This document shows, piece after piece, positions 5,062 through 36,121 of a stretch of 64,000 nucleotides of DNA. Origin of the DNA: Sphingosinithalassobacter tenebrarum (GTDB lineage Bacteria > Pseudomonadota > Alphaproteobacteria > Sphingomonadales > Sphingomonadaceae); contig NZ_CP049109.1 of the NCBI RefSeq assembly GCF_011057975.1, forward strand, positions 3,255,001 to 3,319,000. Reading direction: 5' to 3'. The notes beneath the pieces were generated by a model. That model ran no database searches and was not told the DNA's origin. It saw nothing but the letters and a program-made list of their open reading frames with translations. The position numbers were made by a program, and so were the translations under genes. Each line of letters begins with the position of its first letter. Position 1 is the first letter of the stretch.

Positions 5062-8000
5062 ATGAAGGGCAAGCGGTTTCCGGTGTGGTTCGGCGCAATC
5101 GTTGCCGCGATGCTGGCGACGGCGCAACCGGCGCTGGCGCAGCAGGGGTTTTCCGGCGAACTCGCCCCCGGCGATACGCAGATCGACACCGGCGAATATG
5201 TCGATGCGCACAGCTTCACCGCCACCGCCGGCCAGCGCATCACCGTCACGATGGAGTCGGACGATTTCGACACCTATCTCGCAGTCTCCGGGCCGGGCGA
5301 TTTTGCCGAGCATAATGACGACGCGACCGAAGACAGCACCAACAGCGCGCTGACCTTCGTCGCCCCCGCGTCCGGCGAATATCGCATCCTCGCCACCAGC
5401 TATGAAGGCGGCGAAACCGGCCGTTATCGCGGCACGATCGATATCGGCGGTGGCGCTGTTGCAGACCAGTCTGCCCGACAGACCGTTACCGGCACGCTGT
5501 CCACCAGCGACGCCCAGCTCGACAACGGCGAGTATTTCGACACCTATCCGGTAACGTTGCGCGCGGGGCAGCGCGTCTCGATCGCGATGGAGTCGGGCGA
5601 ATTCGACACCTATCTGGTGGTGATCGGTCCCGACACCGAGTTTACGCGCGAAAATGATGATGCCGGCGACACGACGACTGACGCCGCACTCACATTCACG
5701 GCGCCGACCGACGGCGAGTACCAGATCGCCGCAACCAGCTTCGAAGGTAATCAGACCGGCAGCTATACGCTGACGATCGAAGGTGCCCGGCTGACGGGAC
5801 AGGCCGTCACGCAAGCGCCCGTTGCCCCGGCGGGATCGGGCAGCGGATTTGTCGCACGGCTCGACGCCACCGACGGCAAGCTCGACAGCGGCGAGTATCG
5901 CGACGTCTATACCTTTTCGGCACGCGCCGGGCAGCGCGTTTCGGCACGCGCCGAATCGAGCGATTTCGACACCTATCTGATGGTGCGCGGCCCCAATGAC
6001 TTCAGCGAGGAAAATGACGACGCCGCCGAGGACGATCGCAACGCAGCGCTCGATTTCGCGACTCCCGAGGAAGGCGATTACCGGCTGGTGGTCACCAGCT
6101 ACGAAGCGGGCGAAAGCGGTGACTACAACCTGATCGTCAACGGCGTGTCGCTCGACAGCGAAAGCGTGGCGCTCAACCAGACCGTCTACGAACAGACGAT
6201 AAGCGGCGCGCTCGAGCGCAGCGACAGCCGACTGGGCACCGGCGAATATACCGACCGCTACACGATCACCGCGCGCGCGGGGCAGCGGATCGCGCTGTCG
6301 GCGCTGTCTGACGATTTCGATACCTATCTGATGGTGCGCGGGCCGGGCGACTTTTCGCAGGACAATGACGATGCCGTGGCCGGCGAGCGCAATGCCGCGA
6401 TGCGCTTTACCGCGCCCGCAGACGGCGAATATCGCGTCATCGTCACCAGCTATGCCGAAGGAACCACCGGCGCCTATCAGCTGTCGGTCGGCGGCGCGCG
6501 CATCGACGGCCAGGGGAACGCCGCGCCGGCGCAGAGCGGCAACGGCATGACGCTGGGCACCCCGGTGCGCGGCACGCTGGCTTCGGGCGACAACGAATTG
6601 CGCTCGGGCGAGTATGTCGACACCTGGGAATTGCGCGCGACGCCGGGCGAACGGATCGCGGTGCGGCTTATGTCGGACGCGATCGACACCTATCTGATCG
6701 TGCTCGGCACCGACGGGCGGATCGGCGAGAATGACGACGATCCCAACGGCAACGGATCCTCGGATGCAATGCTGGAGCTGACCGTTCCGGCCGATGGCCG
6801 CGTCTCGATCGGCGCGACCAGCTATCAGCCGGGCGAGACCGGGGGCTATACCCTGGTCGCCGAGCGTGTCGGCGCGGGCACAGGCGGCAGTGGCAGCAGC
6901 AGTCAGAACAGCATCAGCGTCGGGCAGACGGTTCGCGGTTCGCTAGGGTCCGGCGAAGCGCGCGAGGGCAAGTATGAAGACGTCTACGTCCTGCGCGGCG
7001 AAGCCGGACAGAGCATCGAAATCCGGCTCGATTCGACCGCGTTCGATCCCACGCTGGCCATTCGCGGCGGTAACGGATTTTCCGATTCGAACGATGACGA
7101 TCCGGCCGTCGAGAATACGCGCAACAGCCGTCTGGTCGTCACGCTGCCGCAAAGCGGCACCTACAGCCTCGTCGTTTCAAGCTATGAGGCACAGGCGACC
7201 GGCGGCTATTCGCTCAGTGTCGCGCCCGCGCAGGCCCCGGCCGGCACCCCGGCCACGAGCGGCGGTACCGACATGCTGGCGCTGGGCCGCACCGCTACCG
7301 GGCGGCTGCAGAATGGCGACCGCCAGCTCAATTCGGGCGAATATGCCGATGCCTACAGCTTCGCGGGGCGCGCGGGACAGGAAATCGAGATCGACCTCAA
7401 CTCGAGCGATTTCGATCCCTATCTGATCCTTTCCGGTCCCGGCGATTTCCATGAGGAAAATGACGACGCCGTCACCGAAAGCGGGCGCTCCACGCATGAC
7501 AGCCGGATCGTGGTCACGCTTCCCGAGGACGGGACTTATTATGTCAACGTCACTTCCTATCAGGCTGGCGAAACCGGGGCGTATCGCGTCGGGCTGAACG
7601 CGGGCAGCGGCGCTTCGGGCATGGTTTCGAACCGCAGCGCGTCGGGCGGCGGCCCGCGTGTTTTCGCGGTGATGGTGGGCATTGCCGACTATCCCGGCAC
7701 CGCCAACGACCTCTCAAGCACCGACGAGGACGCAATCAAGCTGGGCGAGACACTGCGCCGCTCGGGCCTGCTCAACCCCTCAAGCGTTACGCTGGTCGAC
7801 GCGCAGGCCACGCGCGCCGGCGTTCGCAACGCGATTGCCAGCGTCGCGGCGCAGGCCGGGCCCGAGGATCTGTTCCTCTTCTTCTATTCCGGCCACGGCA
7901 ATCAGGTGCCGACGCCGGTTTCGGCCGAGGAGCTGGACGGGCGTTCGGAAACCATCCTGCTCTATGACGGGCAGGCGAGCGACAACGAACTCGCCCAATG

Positions 8001-34848: not shown

Positions 34849-35166
34849 ATGTCCCAGGATATTCTCGACCGGCTGGAAGCCACGATCCGCGAGCGCCGCA
34901 CCGGCGATCCCGAAACCAGCTATGTGGCGAAGCTGACGGCCAGGGGCCGCAAGAAGATGGCGCAGAAGCTGGGCGAGGAAGGCGTCGAAGCCGCGATCGC
35001 CGCCGTCGCCGAGGACAAGGCGGCGCTGACCGGCGAGGCGGCGGACCTGATCTTCCACCTGATCGTGCTGCTGGCGGACGCGGGGCTCACCCTCGACGAC
35101 GTGCGCGCCGAACTGGCGCGGCGCGAGGGGATGTCGGGGATCGCGGAGAAGGCGGCGCGGGGGTGA
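34849..35166 (+). CDS. hisE: Phosphoribosyl-ATP diphosphatase
   Basis: 105 residues. All-alpha MazG-like pyrophosphatase: LDRLEATIRERR, SYVAKLTARGRKKMAQKLGEEGVEAAIAA with the metal-binding EExxE-type segment, and GEAADLIFHLIVLLAD. It hydrolyses PR-ATP to PR-AMP, the second step of histidine synthesis. The fused HisIE form is not used here. Confidence 0.95.
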   Translation: MSQDILDRLEATIRERRTGDPETSYVAKLTARGRKKMAQKLGEEGVEAAIAAVAEDKAALTGEAADLIFHLIVLLADAGLTLDDVRAELARREGMSGIAEKAARG

Positions 35167-35306: not shown

Positions 35307-35349
35307 GGGGCGGGATTGCCGGCAGTGGGAACCAACGCGCCGCGCTGAC

Positions 35350-35440
35350 GTCACCCCGGACTTGATCCGGGGCCCAGCTGCCTTTTCCCGGCGCAGAGGA
35401 AGCAGAAAAAGCTGGATCCCGGGTCAAGCCCGGGATGACG
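35350..35440. repeat. Palindromic repeat, family C copy 2
   Basis: Left end GTCACCCCGGACTTGATCCG, right end CGGGTCAAGCCCGGGATGAC. Same family as 26536, with a different linker. Confidence 0.8.
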
Positions 35441-35455
35441 GTGAGACTGGGAAGG

Positions 35456-35530
35456 GCCGGCGGCAGGGGTCGAACCCGCACCCTTTCGGGGCCGCTGGTG
35501 CGGCACGTCACCCGATTCCGTCACGCCGAC
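35456..35530 (-). ncRNA. tRNA-Leu-like structure without an anticodon loop
   Basis: On the minus strand, 75 nt fold as a tRNA: a 7-bp acceptor stem (GTCGGCG with CGCCGGC), TG, a type II D-arm ACG-GAATCGGGTGA-CGT, then a 5-bp stem GCCGC/GCGGC closing a 4-nt loop ACCA where a 7-nt anticodon loop should be, a CCC-GAAA-GGG variable arm, and a perfect T-arm GCGGG-TTCGACC-CCTGC. No CCA is encoded. D- and variable arms resemble tRNA-Leu (compare 59453). It cannot read codons as drawn. It may be a decayed gene or a tRNA-like regulatory RNA. Confidence 0.6.
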
Positions 35531-35574
35531 CGCGGCCACATAGACGGAATTGCGGAAATTGGCGACGCTCCCGG

Positions 35575-35707
35575 TTCCTCCCCTGCAAGGGGAGGGGGAC
35601 CGGCGCAGCCGGTGGAGGGGTAGCTCTCCGCAGGCCGCTGGTAGCGTTTTTGGCGCTTACCCCTCCACCATGCTGCGCATGGTCCCCCTCCCCCTCCGGG
35701 GGAGGAA
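35575..35707. repeat. Palindromic repeat, family A copy 3
   Basis: Left end TTCCTCCCCTGCAAGGGGAG, right end CCTCCGGGGGAGGAA. Inner hairpins GACCGGCGCAGCCGGT and ACCATGCTGCGCATGGT flank the variable core. It sits just before the HIT gene. Confidence 0.85.
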
Positions 35708-35740: not shown

Positions 35741-36121
35741 ATGCCCATCGACGCCACCGCGCCCTATGACGATCAGAATATCTTCGCGAAGATCCTGCGC
35801 GGGGAGATTCCCAACAAGACCGTGTATGAGGACGAATATGCGCTCGCCTTCCACGACATCAATCCGCAGGCGCCGCATCACATCCTCGTCATCCCCAAGG
35901 GCGCCTATGTCAGCTGGGACGATTTTTCGGCGAATGCGCCCGAGACGGAGATTGCCGGATTCATCCGGGCGGTGGGCAAGGTGGCGCGCGAGGCCGGGCT
36001 GGTCGAACCGGGATACCGGCTGCTCGCCAATGTCGGGATGGACGCGCATCAGGAAGTGCCGCATCTTCACGTCCATATCTTCGCGGGACGCAAGCTCGGG
36101 CCTATGCTTGCGCAAGACTAG
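35741..36121 (+). CDS. HIT-family nucleotide-binding hydrolase
   Basis: 126 residues. The histidine-triad motif HLHVHIFAG is near residues 108-116. It resembles HinT/HIT purine nucleoside phosphoramidases (NIFAKILRGEIP, HHILVIPKGAYVSWDD). Likely hydrolyses AMP-linked small molecules in the cytoplasm. It has its own GAGAGGAG ribosome-binding site 6 nt upstream, independent of the repeat at 35575. Confidence 0.93.
   Translation: MPIDATAPYDDQNIFAKILRGEIPNKTVYEDEYALAFHDINPQAPHHILVIPKGAYVSWDDFSANAPETEIAGFIRAVGKVAREAGLVEPGYRLLANVGMDAHQEVPHLHVHIFAGRKLGPMLAQD

Follow-up and report, generated by a model that had tools for sequence, protein, structure and literature searches.

Bacterial tRNA-like RNAs that act outside translation are known one by one. 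The staphylococcal cell-wall tRNA-Gly species are tRNAs kept for a non-ribosomal job, but they retain the anticodon and belong to another isotype than the RNA described here. Allo-tRNAs and tRNA-Sec-like tRNAs have real anticodons that are used in decoding. They resemble the present RNA in being non-canonical bacterial cloverleafs with a long variable arm, but PMC7609411 gives them longer acceptor and anticodon stems, whereas the present family has a 7-bp acceptor stem and no anticodon. The tRNA-like domain of tmRNA (PMC3985003, PMC3929946) is likewise a tRNA-like RNA without an anticodon, but tmRNA, unlike the present family, includes a reading frame for a tag and has no lower half of the cloverleaf. 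The Bacillus cereus tRNA-Other (PMC3399842) retains a Trp anticodon and is part of a larger RNA, whereas the present family has no anticodon loop, is leucine-type and is probably leaderless. In its sequence conservation and its missing anticodon, the present family would fit a tRNA-like sRNA of the tRNA-Other kind. A truncated Escherichia coli tRNA-Leu without anticodon and variable arms, a laboratory construct cited in PMC9976931, shares with our RNA the leucine core lacking an anticodon arm, and that paper makes its charging dependent on A73 and the elbow. The natural family differs in keeping a mini-hairpin and a variable (V) arm and, usually, in having an extra T-stem nucleotide. Among the papers listed from the open-licence PMC literature, none describes, by its title or the opening of its abstract, a family in which the anticodon itself is lost while the rest of the molecule is under selection.

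The window analyzed here is a 64,000-nucleotide stretch of the genome of Sphingosinithalassobacter tenebrarum. The tRNA-Leu-like RNA lies on its minus strand, between two genes of the plus strand, and the features are as follows.

34849 to 35166, plus strand (opposite the RNA): hisE, phosphoribosyl-ATP pyrophosphohydrolase (Pfam PF01503, E 6e-22).
35455, minus strand: discriminator N73, which is C, with CCA not encoded (sequence; A73 in 31 of 40 members).
35456 to 35530, minus strand: tRNA-Leu-like RNA without an anticodon loop, 75 nt (sequence, R1 and R2 scores, alignments A3, A4 and A6).
35463 to 35479, minus strand: T arm GCGGG-UUCGACC-CCUGC, with one G-U pair and without the extra 3'-strand nucleotide (sequence, family parse).
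35481 to 35490, minus strand: short class II V arm CCC-GAAA-GGG (sequence, family parse).
35491 to 35504, minus strand: anticodon-position hairpin GCCGC-ACCA-GCGGC, 5 bp with a 4-nt loop, ACCA, at 35496-35499 (sequence, A6 helix 3).
35537 to 35544, minus strand: octamer TCTATGTG, similar to a -10 element, with its first base at -14 relative to the RNA (weak consensus match).
35741 to 36121, plus strand (opposite the RNA): gene of a HIT-domain protein (Pfam PF01230, E 8e-25).

Read on the minus strand from 35530 to 35456, the window copy can fold as a class II, leucine-type cloverleaf. The acceptor stem, GUCGGCG/CGCCGGC, forms 7 pairs including one U-G and is followed by U8 and G9; the D arm has a 3-bp stem, ACG/CGU, and a Leu-type loop of 11 nt, GAAUCGGGUGA; and U48 is present between the V arm and the T arm. 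U8, the 3-bp D stem, the GG of the D loop, the class II V arm and the T loop together give the copy a Leu-type core. The preliminary description of this locus had reported a Leu-type cloverleaf with paired stems, an anticodon arm of 5 bp closed by 4 nt and no encoded CCA; direct reading and the 40 members collected below agree on the fold, and the sequence confirms the missing CCA. The 7-nt anticodon loop and readable anticodon of a decoding tRNA are absent from the window copy, as from every other member. The copy also lacks two leucine-identity bases that most relatives keep: its discriminator is C73, and its D loop reads GGGUGA in place of GGUAGA, so that A20a is missing by our own reading of the 20a numbering.

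As a lone sequence, the window copy is unremarkable. ARAGORN makes no call at the RNA, and in the window it calls only a tRNA-Ala and a tRNA-Leu(UAA), both elsewhere; since this program also seeks tmRNA and reports none in the window, tmRNA has no support as an identity. The score against the Rfam tRNA model RF00005 was 26.4 bits, just under the gathering threshold of 29. The fold of lowest energy is not the cloverleaf, and its energy does not surpass that of shuffled sequences (z -0.58; 50 of 200 are as stable). Thus pairing in the window copy alone is weak evidence, and the case rests on homologues. Large inverted-repeat hairpins lie on either side of the RNA in the hisE-HIT gap (35349-35440 and 35579-35703), and GC-rich hairpins that resemble them by eye occupy many rpoB-rpoC gaps of relatives. 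MIR-family Rfam matches around the RNA were set aside as hairpin repeats that fit microRNA models below threshold.

We searched for homologues by BLASTN, by pattern and by covariance models. BLASTN against 100 genomes, the window's own included, gave one match at the hisE-HIT place (genome G011, 87% identity) and one at a different place (G043, 80%), and the remaining matches listed had E-values of 0.001 or worse. A pattern built on the window, G011 and G043 sequences recovered 11 loci among the GTDB species genomes, in Sphingomonas, Sphingosinithalassobacter, Hephaestia, Novosphingobium, a Sphingobium MAG, an uncultured bin and Lysobacter maris. A covariance model made from these three sequences, the window copy among them (R1), was applied to 295 genomes from the genus of the window, and a second model (R2) was made from 30 members; the window copy scores 100.1 bits with R1 and 83.2 bits with R2, both models having been built with it included. 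Altogether, 40 distinct members were collected, counting the window copy: 38 from Sphingomonadales and two from the genus of Lysobacter maris. They form alignment A6, from which one decayed plasmid copy was left out.

All 295 genomes of the genus give some R1 match because R1 also sees tRNA-Leu. Members were nevertheless found in at least 26 of them, including the window genome, at many sites: 24 score at least 77.9 bits, and two lower matches (69.1 and 65.7 bits) are members by inspection. Five loci were inspected in the range of 60-66 bits, where L075 is a member and L074, L076, L077 and L078 are tRNA-Leu(CAA). With R2, members occurred in nine of 397 genomes of the family sample, in six of 296 of the order sample, which overlaps with it, and in two of seven genomes of the genus of Lysobacter maris. 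In the class sample, six of 318 genomes were matched, and all five besides G000 were ordinary tRNA-Leu; in the order of Lysobacter, 27 of 250 were matched, of which G720 holds a member, and the 17 checked among the 26 others were all tRNA-Leu. Where checked, the ordinary tRNAs that the models match best are tRNA-Leu. The members from the genus of Lysobacter maris (L048 6673-6764 and L093 1501-1590) have longer V arms, with an encoded CCA after L048. Two member loci also contain Rfam sRNA matches, suhB/mmgR and sX15, apart from the RNA (L046 1352-1425 and L093 2433-2581). No relatives of the RNA were found in the viral_contigs or phage records, and on these searches a phage origin was rejected.

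The members show a common structure. The 4-nt loop is present in 40 of 40, reading UACA in 21 (parse of the raw sequences), and hence none of the homologues at hand has the 7-nt loop that, according to the preliminary description, would point to a simple deletion; this constancy is partly a matter of ascertainment, because the recruiting pattern and the models themselves contain a 4-nt loop. Against this, tRNA-Leu genes with longer loops are picked up by the models too, at lower scores, and there was no intermediate among the parsed hits. A readable 6-nt alternative loop (C-NNNN-G) with U33 was rejected, since the members vary at the U but never at the closing C-G pair. U8 occurs in all 40 members and the D loop GAAUUGGUAGA in 24, and exceptions to the Leu-type core are isolated among relatives, as in L071 with its shifted D loop. 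Standard pairs make up 97.5% of the 920 pair cells of A6. Individual helices are 93-100% paired, the T stem being the weakest at 93%; in the anticodon-position helix every cell is paired, and three of its five pairs show two-sided changes. Over the whole alignment, two-sided changes are found at nine pairs (shuffle mean 5.6; reached in three of 500 shuffles), and the covariation score lies above all 500 shuffles and all slid controls. The count of further pair types, one of five covariation measures, was unremarkable, its value being reached by 103 of 500 shuffles. A6 was aligned to the structure of the model, which favours that structure; RNAalifold, run on A6 with no structure supplied, returned the same five helices and 21 of the 23 pairs.

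The covariation that the preliminary description had proposed to look for is present in the alignment, and its view of a selected tRNA-like RNA, not a decaying gene, is borne out by the homologues, their well-paired stems and the compensatory changes. Its expectation that homologues would not have broken stems holds for the members and fails for the decayed copy, which lies on plasmids of two Sphingomonas paucimobilis strains near a Fic-family gene (L079 7988-8067 and L080 5988-6067) and has broken acceptor and D stems with an intact anticodon-position hairpin. We have little doubt that this conserved family of tRNA-Leu-like RNAs is real and selected, and we hold its origin from tRNA-Leu to be just as secure. 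Whether the window copy itself is still functional is an evenly balanced question. A missing decoder was also considered; since the host genome has five normal tRNA-Leu genes (CAA, UAA, UAG, CAG and GAG), the RNA is not one. The function of the family very likely lies outside decoding.

We then considered whether the members could be charged with leucine. According to the review PMC9976931, E. coli tRNA-Leu can still be charged after loss of its anticodon and variable arms, C73 abolishes this charging, A15-U48, G18G19, A20a and the D-T loop contacts matter for it, and the anticodon arm is required for editing by LeuRS and not for charging. Given its C73 and the loss of A20a, the window copy is predicted not to be leucylated and is probably uncharged. 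A73 is found in 31 of the 40 members; G011 has U73, and G218, like the window, has C73. Likewise, 31 of 40 have one additional nucleotide on the 3' side of the T stem, which can be taken either for a 1-nt bulge or for an 8-nt T loop; a script parsed 29 of these, and L047 and L081 were assigned by eye. The two features go together: 30 members have both, eight have neither, and there is one of each mixed type (L071 and L082). The association is strong when kinship is disregarded (Fisher 1e-6). By parsimony on a FastTree tree from which both positions had been left out, each trait requires seven changes and the two jointly require eight, and a Pagel-type test gave LR 20.0 and p 5e-4 on this weak, poorly resolved tree. 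L054 and L041 differ at five alignment positions, two of which are N73 and the extra T-stem nucleotide. Both features lie within about 15 nt, so that a single replacement of the 3' end could change both; for this reason, and because of the poor tree, selection on the combination of A73 and the T stem is a reading and not a proof. CCA is encoded in only one of the 40 members (L048), as against eight of eight genuine tRNA genes checked in the window genome, and charging would thus need CCA addition.

To characterize the flanks, we compared the upstream regions of 28 dispersed alphaproteobacterial members. The alphaproteobacterial -10 consensus is GCTANAWC. Among 200 upstream columns, A at -11 (15 of 28) and T at -12 (15 of 28) were the most informative, with the qualifications that the 28 loci are not all independent and that a remote column, -78, comes close in information. 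The mean best score against the -10 consensus was 4.57 in the interval from -16 to -10, compared with 3.2-3.9 elsewhere, and an octamer of the GCTATn/GTTAnA type starts at -13 to -15 in many, not all, dispersed members; several have no -10 match at the expected place. Many dispersed copies thus show a promoter-like pattern at a fixed distance from the RNA, with a T-rich -35 signal at about -36 in roughly half of them, and in six loci CGGACATT starts at -42 or -43, which gives a -35/-10 spacing. At the window copy, the octamer TCTATGTG matches the consensus at four of seven positions, is tied with other upstream places and has no clear -35 partner. Judged from these upstream patterns, the dispersed copies likely have their own transcription. 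Directly 3' of the RNA, three loci (L188, L191 and L196) carry AATGTCCG. This motif mirrors the upstream CGGACATT of other loci, L188 has both, and the pair may be a terminal inverted repeat. Counting both strands, 339 kb of loci contain CGGACATT 25 times, with nine of the copies at fixed places by the RNA, and these occurrences are too few for an abundant repeat there, so that a repeat-family origin of the motif was rejected.

Based on these observations, we propose that the family consists of expressed, non-decoding mimics of tRNA-Leu that are chargeable in their A73 forms and kept out of translation, a plausible reading to which we give a little less than even weight. Transcription would start at or next to base +1, and the resulting leaderless RNA would fold into the tRNA L. 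Once the 3' end is trimmed and CCA added, the A73 members would be recognised, and perhaps leucylated, by LeuRS, which ignores the anticodon; such engagement of LeuRS is possible and again falls somewhat short of probable. EF-Tu contacts the region of the T stem that holds the extra nucleotide. If this nucleotide hinders EF-Tu, the RNA could engage the leucine-charging machinery without reaching the ribosome, and outside decoding it could serve as a leucine donor or as a mimic that occupies LeuRS. Members that lack A73, among them the window copy, would not be charged, and the T-stem defect would therefore be unneeded in them. The full form of the proposal, a dedicated, self-promoted class of anticodon-less tRNA-Leu selected for leucylation or for holding LeuRS and barred from EF-Tu and the ribosome, is tentative and on balance unlikely; if it is true, such selection would show itself in the almost complete lack of members that combine A73 with an intact T stem. 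Among the observations that speak against the proposal are that A73 is not universal (the window copy lacks both A73 and A20a), that the spread within the genus, at 26 or more of 295 genomes, is patchy, and that several dispersed members have no -10 match at the expected place.

The genomic places of the members bear on other explanations. The preliminary description had placed the RNA antisense in the gap between hisE and the HIT gene, which is true of three genomes (the window's, G011 and G218); as it is found in these three only, the place is not the key to function. The two genes keep the same order, with hisE upstream of HIT, in 30 of 30 loci examined. By approximate lengths, the two carriers measured have gaps of about 577 and 799 nt, against at most 207 nt in 25 of 28 others; L247 (1223 nt) and L260 (397 nt) have longer gaps without the RNA, and the gap of L261 was miscounted because that locus starts late. 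A model scan found the RNA in none of the 28 non-carrier loci, and most likely the RNA was gained in this gap. Elsewhere, members adjoin rpmB in two genomes (one of them checked with Pfam), lie some 0.9 kb from an Hsp70 gene or have many other genes as neighbours, and for some of them prophage tail, T4SS, integrase, HEPN or NACHT genes are found at 0.6-2.6 kb. A common protein partner was sought among the neighbours, and none was found beyond small groups of loci, so that a shared partner gene was rejected. One member (L190, about 6226-6306) lies between phage tail genes, with Phage_tail_S upstream in plus coordinates and Baseplate_J and Tail_P2_I after it, and is thus probably inside a prophage. 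In two genomes, a related small protein of unknown family and about 83 amino acids (M.FE.RDFT.LVKRTREKF) is encoded directly 3' of the RNA on the same strand (L185 6996-7346 and L197 6468-6719, both minus), and Pfam gave no match for that of L197.

The main rival explanation is a tRNA-derived mobile or insertional element, SINE- or MITE-like, in which a promoter and a tRNA-like unit travel together and the fold is needed for propagation without any service to the cell. The apparent gain in the hisE-HIT gap fits such an element, as do the different sites in most genomes, the copies near prophage tail, T4SS and integrase genes, the copy on a plasmid and the AATGTCCG that directly follows the RNA in three loci. 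However, spreading repeats would be expected in several copies, and none of the 295 genomes of the genus has two matches of 69 bits or more, while the two genomes searched at loose cut-offs (G000 and G720) hold a single member each. The survey of the AATGTCCG and CGGACATT motifs did not establish terminal repeats. Some neighbours are core genes, and eight members sit between rpoB and rpoC at near-constant spacing across several genera. We consider an element of this kind unlikely.

These eight members, two from the window's genus and six from other genera of the family, are on the operon strand, 7-10 nt past the rpoB stop and 41-51 nt ahead of the rpoC start (Pfam on one). They are an argument for a structural or processing element within transcripts, whose tRNA-like fold would be cut by RNase P or RNase Z or would serve as a stable spacer. 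The plain GC-rich hairpin that often occupies the rpoB-rpoC gap in other genomes, as seen by eye and including the window genome's own (L099), could be taken in the same sense. However, the RNA was absent from all 90 other rpoB-rpoC junction loci, all of which the model scan covered. These junctions were taken from 158 genomes with an rpoC match, with the known carrier G380 left out, and three of the gaps were unreadable by pattern. In addition, most members lie elsewhere, many with the promoter-like pattern at their 5' end, and the RNA of the window is antisense to both neighbours. A structural or processing element of this kind is decidedly improbable.

A decoy against enzymes that attack anticodon loops, such as defence or toxin nucleases, or an RNA otherwise tied to defence islands, is suggested by two copies 1.4-2.6 kb from HEPN (L192) and NACHT/STAND (L047) genes and by the Fic-family gene that adjoins the decayed plasmid copy. 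Among the 26 proteins run against Pfam, no such genes were recognised beside the other copies examined, phage and viral-contig relatives were not found, and an RNA without an anticodon loop offers no cleavage target, though it could still bind; we regard this explanation as very improbable. Finally, an assembly error, or a tRNA-Leu gene turned pseudogene by a simple deletion, might account for the absence of an ARAGORN call, the score below the Rfam threshold and the existence of a decayed plasmid copy, but it can hardly be reconciled with 40 distinct, paired and covarying members that share a 4-nt loop and compensated stems in many genomes, across genera and into the genus of Lysobacter maris.

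The family is largely missed by annotation programs: ARAGORN was silent at 29 of the 31 members scanned, calling L062 a tRNA-Arg and L088 a tRNA of unknown kind, and the Rfam tRNA model reached its gathering threshold at none of 20 member loci. If the proposed tRNA-Leu mimic is real, then these RNAs, which are without the anticodon arm needed for editing by LeuRS, might carry misactivated amino acids, and in some lineages their gene would be built into the rpoB-rpoC junction. The copies at that junction raise the question of whether a tRNA fold processes or tunes the mRNA of RNA polymerase. If the coupling of A73 and the T stem reflects selection, it would provide a sequence signature of a tRNA that is handled by a synthetase but excluded from the ribosome.
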